From a virus: DNA of 50,930 nucleotides. Positions within the stretch are counted from its first letter, which is position 1. Each line of letters opens with the position of its first letter. The position numbers and the translations under genes are program-made. The notes beneath the pieces were generated by a model. That model made no database searches, had not been told where the DNA came from, and was given only the letters and a program-made list of their open reading frames with translations. Of this stretch, positions 17,133-50,930 are shown one piece after another. Where the stretch lies: positions 1 to 50,930 of the IMG/VR virus record IMGVR_UViG_3300022871_000025; one strand, given 5' to 3'.

Positions 17133-17208
17133 TTTCTGTTTGTGTTACCCATAATAATTTTCTTCTTTGTTTTAAGTTTTCTACATAGTTTCGTTTAAGA
17201 CATTCATA

Positions 17209-17237
17209 CATATACCAAAATTTGACAAAAAAAGCAA
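17209..17237 (-). promoter_or_regulatory. Candidate sigma-70 promoter P3 with flanking inverted repeat
   Basis: On the minus strand: TTGCTT, 17-base spacer, TATATG, with a TGG extended -10. The -10 box overlaps TATACCAAAA (17211-17220, plus strand), whose exact inverted copy TTTTGGTATA lies at 17272-17281, like paired operator half-sites. It would drive the basic protein gene and possibly the packaging operon if the terminator is passed. Nothing else was seen in 17133-17350. Confidence 0.45.
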
Positions 17238-17350
17238 GAACTATTTTCGATTATTCTCATTTTTCTTCACTTTTTGGTATATTTTATGCTATTCATCGTT
17301 TTTGCCAACATAAATCTCATCAAATTGAGCATAAGAATTAAAATAAAAAG

Positions 17351-17920: not shown

Positions 17921-18123
17921 TCAATCCCTCTTTGTTTGTATTCGTGATAAAGAGCACCTGTTACACATAGTTCATCATTCAGGTGTTCACGGTCTTGTTT
18001 ATCAATTGGCAGTCCAAGATAGTTGTCCATACCAATCTTATTATTCAAATATCCCAGATGTAAACCTGATACGAAAATACGGTCTTTCAATTGTTCATCT
18101 GTCATGTCTGTAATTTTGCTCAT
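17917..18123 (-). CDS. Hypothetical 68-residue protein behind duplicated leader L2
   Basis: Begins M-S-K-I-T-D-M-T-D-E-Q-L-K-D-R and is helical and charged. GAAAGGAAA upstream is the ribosome binding site, inside an ~80-base leader that is repeated before the 47-residue gene at 18736-18879. The two proteins share only the first residues after the start, so the leader, not the gene, was duplicated. Function unknown. Confidence 0.55.
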   Translation of the reverse strand: MSKITDMTDEQLKDRIFVSGLHLGYLNNKIGMDNYLGLPIDKQDREHLNDELCVTGALYHEYKQRGIE

Positions 18124-18200
18124 TTCATTTTCCTTTCGTCATAGTCACGTTTTCCTGCACAAGAAACGCGGGGGGCTCTGGGTTAAGAGAAGAGCACCGT
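18124..18200 (-). repeat. Duplicated leader L2 (second copy at 18880-18960)
   Basis: Nearly identical to 18880-18960 over about 80 bases. In the RNA it can form GCTCT/AGAGC, then a C-rich tract (CCCCCCGCG), and ends at the ribosome binding site and ATGAGCAA. It precedes two unrelated small genes, so it is probably a shared 5' regulatory leader or translational control element. Confidence 0.7.
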
Positions 18201-18204
18201 TAAT

Positions 18205-18552
18205 TCAAATTCTCCAGTAATAATCAAGTTTTTCGTAGAACGATGCTGGGAACCTTACAAAATACATTCCAGCAACTTTCATGTTATTTTCTTTAAACTC
18301 TTCCGACGATGTTTTATAGCCTACTATCATACCATCAACCAGAACATATTCAATCATTCCTCGTTTAAGTAAATATTTTACAAGATTTACATCGTCATCA
18401 GGCTTCCCAATATATTTGCACCAATCAAACGGTGTATATGAATCCTTTTTCTTTGGAGTCTTTTGGCGACTTTTTCTTTTCCAAAGCTCAAGTTTAACAA
18501 TTCTTAATGTTAGCTTCTCAACTAATTCCTTCAATTCTTCAATCTCGTTCAT
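18205..18552 (-). CDS. Coiled-coil small protein, paralogue A2
   Basis: 115 residues from the ATG at 18552 (M-N-E-I-E-E-L), which follows GGAGTAAACG; the upstream ATG lies inside the terminator loop and is unlikely. The N-terminal ~30 residues form a leucine heptad coil, a basic linker follows, then a domain with Y-T-P-F-D-W-C and R-F-P-A-S-F-Y-E-K-L-D-Y at the end. It is paralogous to the protein at 19442-19837, with DNA identity clear at the 3' end. It is the first gene behind attenuator 2. Function unknown. Confidence 0.6.
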   Translation of the reverse strand: MNEIEELKELVEKLTLRIVKLELWKRKSRQKTPKKKDSYTPFDWCKYIGKPDDDVNLVKYLLKRGMIEYVLVDGMIVGYKTSSEEFKENNMKVAGMYFVRFPASFYEKLDYYWRI

Positions 18553-18564
18553 AACGTTTACTCC

Positions 18565-18673
18565 AAAAAAAAAGCCATACAGTCTTAGCACAATCTTTAC
18601 CTTTCGACAAAGACTCTCAAAACATGCTAAAACTGTACGGCTTCATTTAATTTGAATCATACTTGTTTTGAGA
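18565..18673 (-). promoter_or_regulatory. Attenuator leader 2: terminator, competing stem, leader peptide
   Basis: Between promoter P2 and the A2 gene the minus-strand RNA contains, in order: segment a (TCTCAAAACA, 18664-18673); the 5' terminator arm (18625-18643); segment a' (TGTTTTGAGA, 18615-18624), perfectly complementary to a over 10 bp; the 3' arm (18572-18590, 19 pairs with two G-U); nine Ts (18565-18573); and GGAG of the next gene. A nine-codon frame (M-K-P-Y-S-F-S-M-F, 18617-18646) covers the 5' arm and stops inside a'. The layout is that of a regulated intrinsic terminator. Stem a:a' and the terminator could also form a pseudoknot. Confidence 0.75.
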
Positions 18674-18694
18674 CAGTACTTTCATTTGAAAACA

Positions 18695-18723
18695 AGCATA
18701 TCAAAATCACTGAAAAAAGTCAA
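18695..18723 (-). promoter_or_regulatory. Sigma-70-type promoter P2 (63-base block shared with P1)
   Basis: Minus strand: TTGACT (18718-18723), 17-base spacer, TATGCT (18695-18700), with TGA extended -10 and an A/T-rich tract upstream like an UP element. Start expected near 18688. The block 18689-18751 is identical to 20416-20478, while flanking DNA differs, so it is a duplicated regulatory unit. Confidence 0.8.
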
Positions 18724-18735
18724 GCACTTTTTTAA

Positions 18736-18879
18736 TTATTTTTTTATTTTTGTTCCTTTGATTATATTTTTACGAACTTTTTCCTTAAAATCAGGGCACG
18801 GGGTCGGCAAATGTTTCCAGTAGTCGGCATTTTCGTAAGCTTGCCGGTCGGTTGTCCGATTCCGTGAACCCTTGCTCAT
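18736..18879 (-). CDS. Small 47-residue basic protein behind leader L1
   Basis: The ATG follows GAAAGGAAA inside leader L1. The sequence M-S-K-G-S-R-N-R-T-T-D-R-Q then A-Y-E-N-A-D-Y-W-K-H-L-P is basic with aromatic residues and ends I-K-G-T-K-I-K-K. The 3' end overlaps the A/T-rich upstream part of promoter P2. No family recognised. Confidence 0.5.
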   Translation of the reverse strand: MSKGSRNRTTDRQAYENADYWKHLPTPCPDFKEKVRKNIIKGTKIKK

Positions 18880-18960
18880 TTCATTTTCCTTTCGTCATAG
18901 TCATTTTTCCCTGCACCGAGAAACGCGGGGGGCTCTGGGTTAAGAGAAGAGCACCGTTAA
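18880..18960 (-). repeat. Duplicated leader L1
   Basis: First copy of the ~80-base leader described at 18124-18200, lying between the methyltransferase stop and the 47-residue gene. Conservation of the hairpin GCTCT/AGAGC, the C6 tract and the ribosome binding site, against a change of downstream gene, argues for a functional leader. Confidence 0.7.
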
Positions 18961-19449
18961 TTAAAGTATTATTAATCTGCCTTTTATAAGCTTTGCATTA
19001 ATTGCTGCATTAATACAAAAAGTATCATAGTTTGAATAGGACACCAAACAACTTGGAGCATTTGCACATCCACCTTGAGTTCCATCAACATGATAGAATT
19101 TCAATCTGCCCTTAAAAAAGAAAACTGCATCTGCTTTTTCCCAGATTTGAGCATGAAAACCTTTTGTTTCAGTTCTAGCAAATATCAATGCTATTCCTTT
19201 GCGATGTTCAGCAAGTTTTTCTATCCACTCAAATGTTTGTCTGCCGTAAGGAGGGTTTAACCAAACTCTGGTATTACTCCAATCTTTATTCAATCCATCA
19301 TCCTTGATTGTGTAATGTTTTGTCGCTGTCGACCATGGTCTGACAATCGGCGCACATGGATCCAAATCAAATGGTCCGATTGCTTCAATGATGTATGGAG
19401 GTGTAAGCCACTCATCTTTGTTTTCTGTGTTTGTGTTAAAATCATTCAT
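18961..19449 (-). CDS. Phage DNA N6-adenine methyltransferase (Dam type)
   Basis: 162 residues from the ATG at 19449 (M-N-D-F-N-T-N-T-E-N). It shows the phage Dam family pattern: D-E-W-L-T-P-P at residues 12-18, F-D-L-D-P-C-A at 27-33 (SAM-binding region), and the catalytic motif N-P-P-Y at 65-68 in V-W-L-N-P-P-Y-G. It should methylate adenine in phage DNA, either as protection from host restriction or as a regulatory mark. It overlaps paralogue A1 by 8 bases and is the last gene before leader L1. Length is normal for the family. Confidence 0.88.
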   Translation of the reverse strand: MNDFNTNTENKDEWLTPPYIIEAIGPFDLDPCAPIVRPWSTATKHYTIKDDGLNKDWSNTRVWLNPPYGRQTFEWIEKLAEHRKGIALIFARTETKGFHAQIWEKADAVFFFKGRLKFYHVDGTQGGCANAPSCLVSYSNYDTFCINAAINAKLIKGRLIIL

Positions 19450-19837
19450 AATCAAGTCCTTCGTAGAACGATGCGGGGAACCTTGCATAATACTTTCCGG
19501 CAATCATTATGTTATTTCCTTCAAATTCTTTCAACGTTGTTTTATAGCCAATACAGAGACAAGCTCTCATAATCTTTTCAATGATTCCTTGTTCAATCAA
19601 AAAATCCATAAGCTTATCTTCACTACTAGAATTGTTAATATGCAGACACCAGTCTTTAGGCGTGAACAAAACTTTCTTCTTGTGAGACCTGCTGTTATTC
19701 TTTTTCCAGCGTTCAAGTCTAACGAGTCTTATTTCTTTCAGATAATTCTCATGTTCTAATTCTTTGATTCTAGATTCTAACTTTGCCACACTTGTTTCCA
19801 TCGTGTCCAACCTCTTCATGTCATCAATTATACTCAT
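19442..19837 (-). CDS. Coiled-coil small protein, paralogue A1
   Basis: 131 residues. The N-terminal ~45 residues form a coil (K-L-E-S-R-I-K-E-L-E-H-E-N), then come a basic linker (R-S-H-K-K-K) and the conserved part F-T-P-K-D-W-C ... I-G-Y-K-T ... F-E-G-N-N-I-M-I-A-G-K-Y-Y-A-R-F-P-A-S-F-Y-E. The A2 paralogue at 18205-18552 shares these blocks. The paired arrangement with duplicated promoters suggests a regulatory or anti-host role in the middle of the cycle; no homologous family known to me. Confidence 0.6.
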   Translation of the reverse strand: MSIIDDMKRLDTMETSVAKLESRIKELEHENYLKEIRLVRLERWKKNNSRSHKKKVLFTPKDWCLHINNSSSEDKLMDFLIEQGIIEKIMRACLCIGYKTTLKEFEGNNIMIAGKYYARFPASFYEGLDYE

Positions 19838-19842
19838 AATTA

Positions 19843-20073
19843 TTACTCCTTGTGTTTATATTCTAAGTCATTGGCCATGCATAACTGCCTTGCGAAATAC
19901 ACCTCTTCACCACACTTCTCGATAAGATTGTTTTCGATGATTTCTTTTGAATACTTATCCCTCTGTTTTTTGTACTTAGCTTCATAAGTATTTGGATATC
20001 TATTTCTAGCATTTTGACAATTCAAAATAATTCTCAAAAACCTTTTGTCCATTTTTTCTTCTACACTTGTCAT
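19843..20073 (-). CDS. Hypothetical 76-residue basic protein
   Basis: Begins M-T-S-V-E-E-K-M-D-K-R and is rich in Lys, Arg, Asn and Tyr (Y-E-A-K-Y-K-K-Q-R-D-K-Y-S-K). Its ATG overlaps the preceding gene by 4 bases. Probably helical; function unknown. Confidence 0.5.
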   Translation of the reverse strand: MTSVEEKMDKRFLRIILNCQNARNRYPNTYEAKYKKQRDKYSKEIIENNLIEKCGEEVYFARQLCMANDLEYKHKE

Positions 20074-20291
20074 TCTTTTGCGACTTTCTTTTTAAAGTAA
20101 TTTTCAATTTCCACATTAAGTTCTTTTACGCTTGATGAACATGTTGTTCTTTTTATTTTTTGCCATTCTTGTGAAGTCAAATTCATACTCTCGATTAATT
20201 CTTCTAAAGGAACTCCTTTCGTTGCCATAGCGTAACCATAAAGCTGATTGTCTGCAAGATTTCTCATGTATACTGTTTGAGGTACCGTCAT
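20070..20291 (-). CDS. 73-residue protein, possible small HTH regulator
   Basis: First gene behind attenuator 1, with GGAG eight bases before the ATG. Residues ~25-48 (G-V-P-L-E-E-L-I-E-S-M-N-L-T-S-Q-E-W) have the length and spacing of a helix-turn-helix, followed by a Lys-rich C-terminal helix. Role as a DNA-binding regulator is possible but unproven. Confidence 0.5.
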   Translation of the reverse strand: MTVPQTVYMRNLADNQLYGYAMATKGVPLEELIESMNLTSQEWQKIKRTTCSSSVKELNVEIENYFKKKVAKE

Positions 20292-20302
20292 TTTGTTACT
20301 CC

Positions 20303-20401
20303 AAAAAAAAACCTCCAGAAAACGATGTCAACCAGAAATCTCTTTCCAGCTCTCACATAACATCATTTTCTGAAGGCTTCATTAATTATCAAGAATGTGA
20401 G
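20303..20401 (-). promoter_or_regulatory. Attenuator leader 1: terminator, competing stem, leader peptide
   Basis: Same order as attenuator 2 with different sequence: segment a (CTCACAT, 20395-20401); 5' terminator arm (20360-20376); segment a' (ATGTGAG, 20352-20358); 3' arm (20312-20328, 17 pairs with two G-U); nine Ts (20303-20311); then GGAG of the 73-residue gene. A nine-codon frame (M-K-P-S-E-N-D-V-M, 20353-20382) covers the 5' arm and stops inside a'. Both stems are kept while the bases differ from attenuator 2, which is strong comparative support for function. Confidence 0.75.
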
Positions 20402-20421
20402 TTCTCGCTTAATTTAAAACA

Positions 20422-20450
20422 AGCATATCAAAATCACTGAAAAAAGTCAA
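20422..20450 (-). promoter_or_regulatory. Sigma-70-type promoter P1
   Basis: Minus strand TTGACT (20445-20450), 17-base spacer, TATGCT (20422-20427), with extended -10 TGA and an A/T-rich upstream tract. It is part of a 63-base block (20416-20478) identical to P2. It should start the minus-strand transcript of the first cassette near 20415. Confidence 0.8.
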
Positions 20451-20525
20451 GCACTTTTTTAATTATTTTTTTATTTTTTTTATTCTTCAATTCTCTACTA
20501 AAAATTTTTCTACGTTTTGGTTTGG

Positions 20526-20583
20526 ATTGTGTAAGCCTTAAATAAAAAAGCGTAGCGGTCACTTTTTATTTATGTCTCACAAT
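20526..20583. promoter_or_regulatory. Nested inverted repeat in the inter-arm region
   Basis: Outer arms ATTGTG/CACAAT (20526-20531 and 20578-20583) and inner arms AAATAAAAA/TTTTTATTT (20540-20548 and 20563-20571) are symmetric. It lies upstream of P1 and could be an operator or structured origin element. Confidence 0.45.
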
Positions 20584-21002: not shown

Positions 21003-21081
21003 AGGGGCACTTTTGGGCAAAACTCAAGACTGGACACAGAGGTATTCAATATATGTATAAACGTAAATATAGGGTAGGGGG

Positions 21082-21148
21082 TGGATAAAAGATTTTGGCT
21101 TTATATATCTATGGATTGGATAAAAGATTTTGGCTTTATATATCTATG
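21082..21148. repeat. Two 32-base direct repeats, 35-base period
   Basis: Exact copies at 21082-21113 and 21117-21148, A/T-rich with TTTATATATC, resembling an unwinding-element repeat. They lie between the sigma-54 site and the iterons. Confidence 0.75.
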
Positions 21149-21331
21149 AATTTGGTGTGTTGGTGTGCTAGTGGGTGGGCCACCCGACTGGCTATTAGTT
21201 GTATGTGCCTTGTGTGCAGTGCCTTGGCTGTTTAGTGTGCCTTGTATTGTCGCGCTATTGTCACGCCTGGGTAGTCAAGAGGTGCATAATAACCAAATAA
21301 TGATGTATCAATGCATGATCCCTTTCCCTAA

Positions 21332-21364: not shown

Positions 21365-21410
21365 ATAGAAACACAGGGCTAAATGGTTGTTTTAATCTAC
21401 CACACTAGAG

Positions 21411-21510
21411 TTATTAACAGGTTATTAACAGGTTATTAACAGGGGCTAAGTTGTTGTATGTCAAAGGATTATAAGATATTAAGCAAAAGTTATTAACAGG
21501 TTATTAACAG
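21411..21510. repeat. TTATTAACAGG iterons, probable replication origin
   Basis: Three exact adjacent copies at 21411-21443 and two more at 21490-21510 (the last with one mismatch), an 11-base period equal to one helical turn. The core TTATTAACA differs by one base from the DnaA box TTATNCACA. This region between the divergent arms is the most likely origin or initiator-binding site. The 1.5-kb stretch 20292-21824 has no supported gene; a 60-codon GTG frame at 21165 lacks a ribosome binding site. Confidence 0.65.
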
Positions 21511-47377: not shown

Positions 47378-49053
47378 TATTCAACTCCCTCGATGCTCGT
47401 AGCAGCTCCCAGTATTGCAGCTAAATCTGATAACTTGGGCATACTTGCCATATAAAGTTTGTAAGCATCTGCAATATATCCTTGCATTTGCGTATTAAGA
47501 GAGTTTTGATTCATAACGCCTTGAGCATCTAAACTAGCTTGTTGAATTGCCGCACTTGTTGTATTGTTAGCTGTAGCCACATTTGCACTTGTTGCATTGT
47601 TAGCTGTAGCCACACTTGCACTTGTTGCATTGTTAGCTGTAGCCACACTTGCACTTGTTGCATTGTTAGCTGTAGCCACACTTGCACTTGTATCAGCCCC
47701 ATATTTAGAAGCACTAAGAGAGTTTTTGCTAGAAGCAATAGAAGAAGCATAGTTTCTTATACTACTGTTTTCAGACGTAAAAGCACTAGCCTTGGCCTGT
47801 GCGAGTTGAGATTTTATTTCTTTAACTCTAAGAGTCAACTCGTGCCCTTTCATTTCGTGGTCAGATTCAAATTGTGCCATACGAACTTCTACATCATATA
47901 CTTTCAACAGAGAATCAATAGTCATTCCAGCAGTTTGTATTTCTTGAGAGCCAACAGTATTAAGATAGTTAGTATAAGCTTGAGAAAGTACATCTACTTC
48001 TTTCATAATATGAGGGATAATAGTTGATATTTCTTGTAAATCGTTACTTCTCATACTTTCAAGACCAGAAATCAAGTCAGCCCTAGCTTTTTCTTGACTG
48101 CCATACAAATCTTTTTCAAGATTAATCCTACGCTCAACAAGTTTATCACTAAGATTTGTAAGAGCCATTTGATGTTCTCTCTCAATTCCAGATGAAATCG
48201 GTCCCCATGTCAAACTATTATGAGTATGTTTATCAATCATTTCAGCTTCACGTTTAGAACGCTCGGTTGTAAATGCTAAATCAATAACGGCTTTTTCGCT
48301 AACTCCCCAATCATCTAGCTCATCACTTACTGTATCTTGATATGCAATAAAATCGTTTATAAACTCATCAAGTACATCCTGTATTTTCGGATTATAGTCT
48401 TCTCCAACGTCCTGCATCTCACCTTTATATTTATCAAGGAGTGTGTCAACTAAATCAGCTGCATATCTTATTTTTTCAGTAAAAGAAATACGAGCAAGAT
48501 CTATTGCGTCTTCAGCAACAAGTAAAGCATTGTCGATATCTGACTGCGGTGAAGAAACATTTTCTATTGTTATTCCATATAGTCCTTCATCGATTTCAGG
48601 AAACCACCCAGCCGAAATAGGGGTAACATTAGTATTTTCAAGTGTTGCAGCCTCTCCCCCAGTTGCATTTGATGCAGTTCCTCCAGTTGCAGTTCCTCCA
48701 GTTGCAGTTCCTCCAGTTGCAGTTCCTCCAGTTACGGATGCTGAAACATCATCCAAACCAGCATCTAATGCTACTATTAACTCCATAATGCTGGCAGTTG
48801 TAGTCTCATCCTCAGTATCGTAATTGTCTTCAAACAACGAGTATAATGTAGAAAGTACCTCACCAAAATCCACATACTCTCGCTTTAGTACGTAATTAAT
48901 AGGTACTGCCGCTGATGAATCAGTAGAAGAAGAAGGTATTCTTGAAGAAATTCTCCACCCGTTTGCAACCATTGCAGGAACAACGCTTTGCTCCCCTGGC
49001 TTTTCTTGTAAATCACAACTTAATTCTTCTGTCCAATCGGATATATCAGTCAT
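47377..49053 (-). CDS. 558-residue coiled-coil protein with two internal tandem repeats
   Basis: N-terminal ~100 residues, then a Gly/Thr repeat (T-G-G-T-A units, four copies), a long charged coil (residues ~180-400) and an Ala/Asn/Ser repeat encoded by 33-base units (A-T-A-N-N-A-T-S-A-S-V), followed by a short hydrophobic helix. The layout suggests an elongated tail protein, perhaps an appendage or a needle-like hub component. The repeat DNA makes length variation likely. Confidence 0.55.
   Translation of the reverse strand: MTDISDWTEELSCDLQEKPGEQSVVPAMVANGWRISSRIPSSSTDSSAAVPINYVLKREYVDFGEVLSTLYSLFEDNYDTEDETTTASIMELIVALDAGLDDVSASVTGGTATGGTATGGTATGGTASNATGGEAATLENTNVTPISAGWFPEIDEGLYGITIENVSSPQSDIDNALLVAEDAIDLARISFTEKIRYAADLVDTLLDKYKGEMQDVGEDYNPKIQDVLDEFINDFIAYQDTVSDELDDWGVSEKAVIDLAFTTERSKREAEMIDKHTHNSLTWGPISSGIEREHQMALTNLSDKLVERRINLEKDLYGSQEKARADLISGLESMRSNDLQEISTIIPHIMKEVDVLSQAYTNYLNTVGSQEIQTAGMTIDSLLKVYDVEVRMAQFESDHEMKGHELTLRVKEIKSQLAQAKASAFTSENSSIRNYASSIASSKNSLSASKYGADTSASVATANNATSASVATANNATSASVATANNATSANVATANNTTSAAIQQASLDAQGVMNQNSLNTQMQGYIADAYKLYMASMPKLSDLAAILGAATSIEGVE
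47566..47691 (-). repeat. 33-base tandem repeats, about 3.8 copies
   Basis: Units at 47566, 47599 and 47632 plus a partial copy at 47665, nearly identical, coding an 11-residue Ala/Asn/Ser repeat in the 558-residue protein. Confidence 0.85.
48674..48733 (-). repeat. 15-base tandem repeats, four copies
   Basis: Exact 15-base units at 48674, 48689, 48704 and 48719 coding five-residue T-G-G-T-A units in the same protein; a flexible linker. Confidence 0.85.
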
Positions 49054-50426: not shown

Positions 50427-50588
50427 CTAAAATTCTTCCATCTCATCTTTATAATTCATCAGATACCACGCCCTCGAATCTTCGGACGGCATAACAAAGT
50501 CAACGGTCTCGAACGTCGGCTGTGCAGGTGTAGATTGCAAATTAAGATTAAAGCTTAACATCGTCATTATTATTAGTATCATCATCAT
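50427..50588 (-). CDS. 53-residue small exported protein
   Basis: Start M-M-M-I-L-I-I-M-T-M-L-S-F follows GGAGATAATT; a short hydrophobic leader, then Q-S-T-P-A-Q-P-T-F-E-T-V-D-F and an acidic end (M-N-Y-K-D-E-M-E-E-F). Complete copy of the partial frame at 1-119. Looks like a secreted or membrane-attached peptide, function unknown. Confidence 0.6.
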   Translation of the reverse strand: MMMILIIMTMLSFNLNLQSTPAQPTFETVDFVMPSEDSRAWYLMNYKDEMEEF

Positions 50589-50930
50589 AATTATCTCCAG
50601 TAATATTTTATACCGATTTCGTCCATGTGATTAGGGTCGGCAGGTCGTCCATTGTGCTCCAAAACAAAATGAGTTGCCTCGTGCTTGATGTAACCCTCCG
50701 ACATTTTCATTGTCACAATGACATCCCCTTTAGTAAAAGCCCCCCAGTCTTTACGCATTTTGCTGTCAAAGTAAAACTTAGGCAATTTGGTGTCTTTCAA
50801 TGATTTGTTCTCAACCAGCATTAATAACTTGCGTTGAGAGAACCAAACACTTGCTTGTCCATACTGCTCTGGATTAAATTCTATTTTGCCATCCCAAAAG
50901 GAACCGTTCTTTTTGCCACGTAGGAATAAG
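50470..50930. repeat. Right copy of diverged terminal repeat
   Basis: Counterpart of 1-455, 461 bases. Contains the 3' part of the 53-residue gene and most of a second HExxH allele. The last 80 and first 111 bases match the left copy exactly. Confidence 0.85.
50591..50930 (-). CDS. Second allele of the HExxH metallopeptidase-like gene, partial
   Basis: The frame runs off the right end of the window (its 5' end is missing). About 113 residues are visible. HEATH and N-x-x-D-E are kept. Compared with 116-517, about ten residues differ in the last 76, many with conservative changes (E/K, I/V, L/M, R/W), with identical flanks. It is probably an alternative population allele of the same gene, not a second gene. 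Confidence 0.6.
   Translation of the reverse strand, partial: LFLRGKKNGSFWDGKIEFNPEQYGQASVWFSQRKLLMLVENKSLKDTKLPKFYFDSKMRKDWGAFTKGDVIVTMKMSEGYIKHEATHFVLEHNGRPADPNHMDEIGIKYYWR

Follow-up and report, generated by a model that had tools for sequence, protein, structure and literature searches.

We analysed the complete 50,930-nt window of IMG/VR record IMGVR_UViG_3300022871_000025, which derives from an uncultured virus. Because its ends form an imperfect terminal repeat (1-455 versus 50470-50930, 90% over 462 nt), the record probably represents an almost complete genome, circular or permuted, whose join is present in two variants. The presence of genes for a phage integrase (PF00589), an Erf annealing protein, a YqaJ exonuclease, a primase/helicase, and a terminase indicates that the virus is probably a temperate tailed phage. 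Relatives were sought using the terminase, a conserved structural protein, and the cassette proteins against viral contigs, and using the terminase against genome contigs. These protein and DNA searches yielded three related records. One of them, IMGVR_UViG_3300022882_000107, shows 100% identity across 21.8 kb and contributes nothing independent. The other two are referred to as L004 (terminase 98%) and L005 (terminase 92%).

A leftward operon begins beside a repeat-rich non-coding stretch (20.6-22.6 kb) and extends to the terminase and head genes. Direct repeats within this stretch (21075-21152 and 21390-21510), which separates divergent operons, constitute a candidate replication origin. An A/T-rich hairpin, AAATAAAAAGTGACCGCTACGCTTTTTTATTT (20540-20577), lies upstream of promoter 2. 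Both of its arms are altered together in L005 (AAAGAG / CTCTTT), which suggests a conserved bidirectional terminator. Self-BLAST also revealed a tandem repeat with a period of ~33 nt (47552-47691) in the structural region, where it falls within a minus-strand gene.

Two leaders, both on the minus strand, head the leftward operon, each in front of a gene cassette. Their features are given below in the direction of transcription.

20413..20481, minus strand: promoter block 2, with an A-rich upstream element (TTGACT 20450-20445, TATGCT 20427-20422; 97% to block 1)
20390..20407, minus strand: 5' hairpin P0 of leader 2, 6 bp, apical loop CTCACA (prefix folding)
20395..20401, minus strand: segment a of leader 2, CTCACAT (complement of a')
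20353..20382, minus strand: nine-codon frame MKPSENDVM*, lacking a Shine-Dalgarno (SD) sequence; probably not a gene
20352..20358, minus strand: segment a' of leader 2, ATGTGAG, the hairpin bulge (folding, complementarity to a)
20308..20380, minus strand: terminator hairpin of leader 2, 23-bp stem, 7-nt 5' bulge, 8-bp apical stem, GAGA loop (z -8.1)
20303..20311, minus strand: T9 tract of leader 2, followed by GGAG (20302-20299)
20070..20291, minus strand: first gene of cassette 2, 73 aa (weak phrog_6246 match)
19843..20073, minus strand: second gene of cassette 2, 76 aa (gene list, Pfam search)
19442..19837, minus strand: third gene of cassette 2, 131 aa, paralogue of the first gene of cassette 1 (protein comparison)
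18961..19446, minus strand: Dam-type adenine methyltransferase of cassette 2, start codon not fixed (PF05869, 3.6e-16; phrog_111, 1.4e-44)
18686..18754, minus strand: promoter block 1 (TTGACT 18723-18718, TATGCT 18700-18695; 69-nt match and consensus scan)
18659..18679, minus strand: 5' hairpin P0 of leader 1, loop CTCAAA, or an 11-nt loop, GTCTCAAAACA, if two inner pairs open (prefix folding)
18664..18673, minus strand: segment a of leader 1, TCTCAAAACA (complement of a')
18617..18646, minus strand: nine-codon frame MKPYSFSMF*, lacking an SD; probably not a gene
18615..18624, minus strand: segment a' of leader 1, TGTTTTGAGA, the hairpin bulge (folding, complementarity to a)
18572..18643, minus strand: terminator hairpin of leader 1, 20-bp stem, 8-nt 5' bulge, 10-bp apical stem, GAAA loop (z -7.8)
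18565..18573, minus strand: T9 tract of leader 1, followed by GGAG (18564-18561)
18205..18552, minus strand: first gene of cassette 1, 115 aa (cut to 28 codons in L004)

The paralogous proteins encoded at 18205-18552 and 19442-19837 share 42% identity, a start resembling a coiled coil, and the end RFPASFYE. No relatives of this pair were found in GenBank phages, nor in viral contigs except for the identical record, and the AlphaFold model of the 115-aa protein was poor (pLDDT 58). A second repeated block, beginning TTAACGGTGCTCTTCTCTTAACCCAGAGCCCCCCGCG, occurs at 18116-18209 and 18872-18965 (94% over ~94 nt), before two small genes starting with MSK. It terminates in a short frame (MTMTKGK) that overlaps the gene start, recurs in L004, and folds no better than shuffled sequences.

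The two leaders share their promoter region. An earlier note made from the DNA letters had proposed a common block of 63 bases; the match in fact spans 69 nt at 97% identity. A consensus scan located TTGACT, a 17-nt spacer, and TATGCT in both blocks, with TG ahead of the -10 element. The distance from promoter to T9 tract is ~140-150 nt in each leader, and the leaders themselves are about 124 nt (leader 1) and 113 nt (leader 2) long, using estimated start sites. A third promoter, alike in type, was observed at 17212-17237 (block 17171-17276), with 3 mismatches to the twin pattern. It is 94-95% conserved in L004 and L005 and stands ahead of the terminase operon with no leader terminator. Approximately 60 further matches to the promoter pattern were dismissed as ordinary promoters without leaders of this kind. 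A scan for countertranscript promoters revealed none common to both leader copies; a weak plus-strand promoter-like site (20160-20189) occurs before leader 2 only.

Downstream of each promoter, a long hairpin and T9 tract are followed by GGAG and then by the first ATG of the cassette. The minimum free energies of the hairpins are -35.6 (leader 1) and -36.3 kcal/mol (leader 2), and none of 200 shuffles folded as well. The window contains only three T9 runs, two of which are the tracts of the leaders. Thus, both leaders have the stable hairpin directly before a U-rich tract that characterizes an intrinsic (Rho-independent) terminator, and in both it is placed between the promoter and the first ribosome binding site, as in an attenuator. 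The terminator recognized in the earlier note is therefore present as described, except in its dimensions: rather than 17-19 bp, the stems measure 20 and 23 bp, counting pairs with the first Ts, and carry additional apical stems of 10 and 8 bp.

A nine-codon frame beginning MKP covers the 5' arm of each terminator, with its TGA stop inside a' in both copies, as had been noted earlier. Equal-length frames at this position could point to ribosome-mediated attenuation, in which movement of a ribosome over a leader peptide triggers the switch. We find this extremely improbable. Neither frame has an SD, unlike nearly all genes of the operon. Indeed, anti-SD pairing was computed as -0.2 and +0.6 kcal/mol for the frames, compared with -2 to -13.6 kcal/mol for operon genes (one overlapping gene departs from this range at -0.9 kcal/mol). 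The shared MKP arises because the common base of the terminator stem, AATGAAGCC, encodes the start of the frame. Past these residues the two peptides are unlike each other, and neither frame contains a run of codons for a single amino acid. We therefore regard the nine-codon frames as incidental.

A second stem had been proposed to compete with the terminator. The pairing itself was borne out in both leaders, with 10 bp between TCTCAAAACA and TGTTTTGAGA in leader 1 and 7 bp between CTCACAT and ATGTGAG in leader 2. Its role as a competing antiterminator was not. Because the terminator hairpin leaves a' as its bulge and only 1-2 nt overlap, the two structures are not base-for-base rivals, and neither leader contains a classic, mutually exclusive antiterminator built from bases of the terminator arms. 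At equilibrium, the terminator is favoured over a structure with a:a' forced by 17-19 kcal/mol, so termination would be the default without help. Instead, a:a' and the terminator would interleave as a pseudoknot in which both can form, and the action of a:a' could be only kinetic or exerted as a pseudoknot.

To gauge how unusual this pairing is, we compared the bulge matches with shuffled and unrelated sequences. A match as long as the observed one arose in 0.27% (leader 1) and 0.58% (leader 2) of dinucleotide shuffles of the upstream part. The leader 2 match is unremarkable if any position in the hairpin is allowed (p 0.18); its weight thus comes from leader 1, which fixed the bulge as the position to be considered. 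A covariance model built from two divergent sequences and one near copy would only return itself, and a descriptor scan of the fetched loci (237 sequences, 2.05 Mb) was used instead, limited to single hairpins with 14 bp or more, a T-run, and a bulge on the 5' side. From the 35 hairpins recovered, 32 were unrelated, and their longest upstream match to the bulge was 6 (both such cases A/T-only), with most at 3-4. Leader 1, leader 2, and L004 scored 10, 7, and 9, respectively. The pairing is also specific to each copy: cognate a:a' energies are -11.9 and -9.0 kcal/mol, versus -4.9 and -3.8 kcal/mol for the crossed pairs. Each copy's a:a' therefore pairs well only with itself.

These data bear on a simpler account, that the hairpins are plain insulating terminators, stopping upstream transcription or curbing a strong promoter, and that the second pairing arose by chance. 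Arrangements of hairpin, T-run, and SD do occur in other viral contigs, and leader 1 would double as a block to read-through from cassette 2. We nevertheless consider this account unlikely, since a plain terminator at so short a distance would silence its own promoter, and chance would seldom place a:a' at the same position in both copies. Hairpins before GGAG in other contigs were also evaluated as like leaders and rejected, as they had no complement to the bulge.

Folding of the growing transcript gave the same order of events for both leaders: P0, then a:a', then the apical hairpin, and finally the terminator. In both, segment a falls within the apical loop of P0, which suggests a loop-bulge kissing contact between P0 and the terminator bulge. 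The folding program used here ignores pseudoknots. When a was held fixed and its flanks were shuffled, a fell in a loop in about one third of cases, and did so with the stability of the real fold in ~2% for each leader. Individually, the P0 hairpins are weak (folding shuffles, p 0.10 and 0.02).

We then considered how the two leaders have diverged. The arms of the terminators differ in sequence and keep pairing, as stated previously. When 20 stem pairs were matched up starting at the stem base, both sides differed in 12, one side in 4, and neither in 4. This register is imposed by the structure, and the comparison is between two paralogous leaders rather than across a phylogeny, so the term covariation overstated what two divergent copies can provide. 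Given the same two considerations and promoters that are 97% identical, gradual compensatory drift is an unnatural explanation; replacement, or selection for different self-specific stems, would fit better.

The relatives gave a mixed picture on whether parts of the leader are lost freely. L004 keeps everything in a single leader, in which leader 1 is preceded by the upstream flank of leader 2, an arrangement that fits cassette exchange through the shared promoter block. From the -10 element to the ATG, L004 and leader 1 disagree at 1 of 146 positions, compared with 14 of the next 87 coding nucleotides (Fisher, 5e-6), and the first gene stops after 28 codons. The sole change in the leader converts an A-U pair of a:a' to G-U. 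The leader has thus been kept during decay or shrinkage of its gene, though a recent recombinational exchange of the leader could produce the same picture. L005, by comparison, has the promoter at the same place and then directly a different gene, with no leader and no terminator. The leader therefore travels with the cassettes, and its control is not essential to the phage. Pattern matches to leader or promoter DNA in two further loci (L022 and L023) were attributed to chance. The descriptor scan found no leader of this architecture among genome-contig pattern matches, and in GenBank phages the leaders gave only short, A/T-rich matches attributable to chance and the cassette proteins gave none.

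The promoter architecture and its distribution also bear on whether the leaders are processive antitermination gates of the lambda Q or HK022 put type, where polymerase, modified at the shared promoter block by a phage factor or by the initial RNA, would ignore the terminator late in infection. The shared block exceeds a minimal promoter in both copies, the leaders head an operon running to terminase and head genes, and a terminator just behind the promoter is a hallmark of such gates. However, the third promoter (17212-17237) reads to the terminase genes and lacks such a leader terminator, so late genes do not need a gate, and L005 has the same promoter without a terminator. Q-family profiles gave no match (PF06530 and PF03589, both with positive controls; PF06323, with a silent control), and a gate would leave the a:a' pairing unexplained. 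We judge this explanation to be quite improbable.

Alternatively, the small RNA could itself be the product, acting in trans or like an antitoxin, in which case the terminator would only fix how much of it is made relative to downstream mRNA. The order and size of the elements are those of RCd22-abiF (PMC12373285), the structure goes far beyond what termination would require, and leader 1 persists in L004 where the gene has been truncated. On the other hand, the RNAs contain no repeats and match no Rfam family, and the two share little sequence beyond the stem base. No toxin or abortive-infection family was detected among the downstream proteins by Pfam, PADLOC, or PF13958, the control for PF13958 also being silent. 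A functional small RNA ranks second among our explanations, as a possibility that we entertain without favouring.

Taken together, the promoter match, the hairpins, the T9 tracts, their position before the SD, the copy-specific a:a' pairing, and the near-unchanged leader 1 in L004 provide computed support for a leader whose anatomy (promoter, structured leader, terminator before the ribosome binding site, and second pairing) is real, non-random, and attenuator-like. Our best explanation, to which we assign not quite an even chance, is that each leader is a structured RNA carrying a conditional intrinsic terminator, where the a:a' contact tunes closing or forms a site for a factor. Termination itself, the kissing contact, and regulation of read-through are what we infer from this anatomy.

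According to this conditional-terminator model, RNA polymerase would start at the shared strong promoter. P0 would form first and display segment a in its loop. The 5' arm of the terminator would then emerge, followed by a', which would become the hairpin bulge and pair with a. Once the 3' arm is out, the 20-23 bp hairpin would close at the T9 tract, and most polymerases would stop, releasing a small RNA of ~113-124 nt. Only read-through transcripts would bear the SD and the cassette genes, such that cassette expression would depend on read-through. The a:a' pseudoknot may tune the speed or stability of terminator closing, or may be the site for a phage or host factor. Since the terminator is so strongly favoured at equilibrium, the model has no obvious on-state without a factor, and searches of Rfam and Q-family profiles revealed no ligand, antiterminator, or RNA family for the leaders. 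As a counterpoint to the model, two divergent copies and one near-identical relative offer no phylogenetic covariation.

A more specific proposal is that these leaders represent a new class of phage leader RNA, in which the P0 loop kisses the terminator bulge, the contact or its reader controls closing, and each cassette has an orthogonal copy. We put this forward speculatively, as the less probable outcome. If the loop-bulge contact does govern termination, it would be a compact RNA-folding gate for phage accessory genes, distinct from antiterminators that compete base for base. Two self-specific copies in one genome would then be a natural experiment on the avoidance of cross-talk between paralogous RNA switches.

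Several known systems resemble these leaders in part. Lambda regulates its late genes through the PR'-tR' gate, in which a promoter is closely followed by a terminator ahead of the operon. The present leaders have the same placement, but differ from this gate in their specific RNA pairing and in the existence of a third promoter and of L005, both without a terminator. Such Q gates are the second analogue (PMC7171158). The first is RCd22-abiF of the Clostridioides difficile prophage phi027, which consists of a promoter, an RNA of ~100-130 nt, a terminator, a ribosome binding site, and a gene, and in which most transcription stops before abiF (PMC12373285). Like it (abiF motif RF03085), the leaders are phage-borne, with one promoter, an RNA of similar length, and a terminator before the ribosome binding site and gene. 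In contrast to it, their terminator hairpin carries a bulge that pairs upstream, and two orthogonal copies occur in one phage. Neither an abiF RNA motif nor an Abi_2 protein was detected here, the RNA positive control also being silent.

Type III toxin-antitoxin loci have the same promoter-RNA-terminator-gene order (PMC12373285). ToxIN, CptIN, and TenpIN likewise combine a pseudoknotted, structured RNA with a terminator and gene under one promoter. In the present leaders the pseudoknot includes the terminator itself, and there are no tandem RNA repeats and no ToxN-like protein. Attenuators, including riboswitch platforms, BglG/LicT RAT-terminator systems, and those of the pT181 type, share alternative pairings in the leader and a terminator before the ribosome binding site. 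Unlike in attenuators generally, the a:a' pairing is not in base-for-base competition with the terminator, and no Rfam family, including riboswitches and RAT, matched the leaders above its gathering score. By analogy, the leaders would work like a conditional terminator, with no named family found to include them. The order of promoter, RNA, terminator, and gene is already known; it is the folding pattern here that looks unusual.
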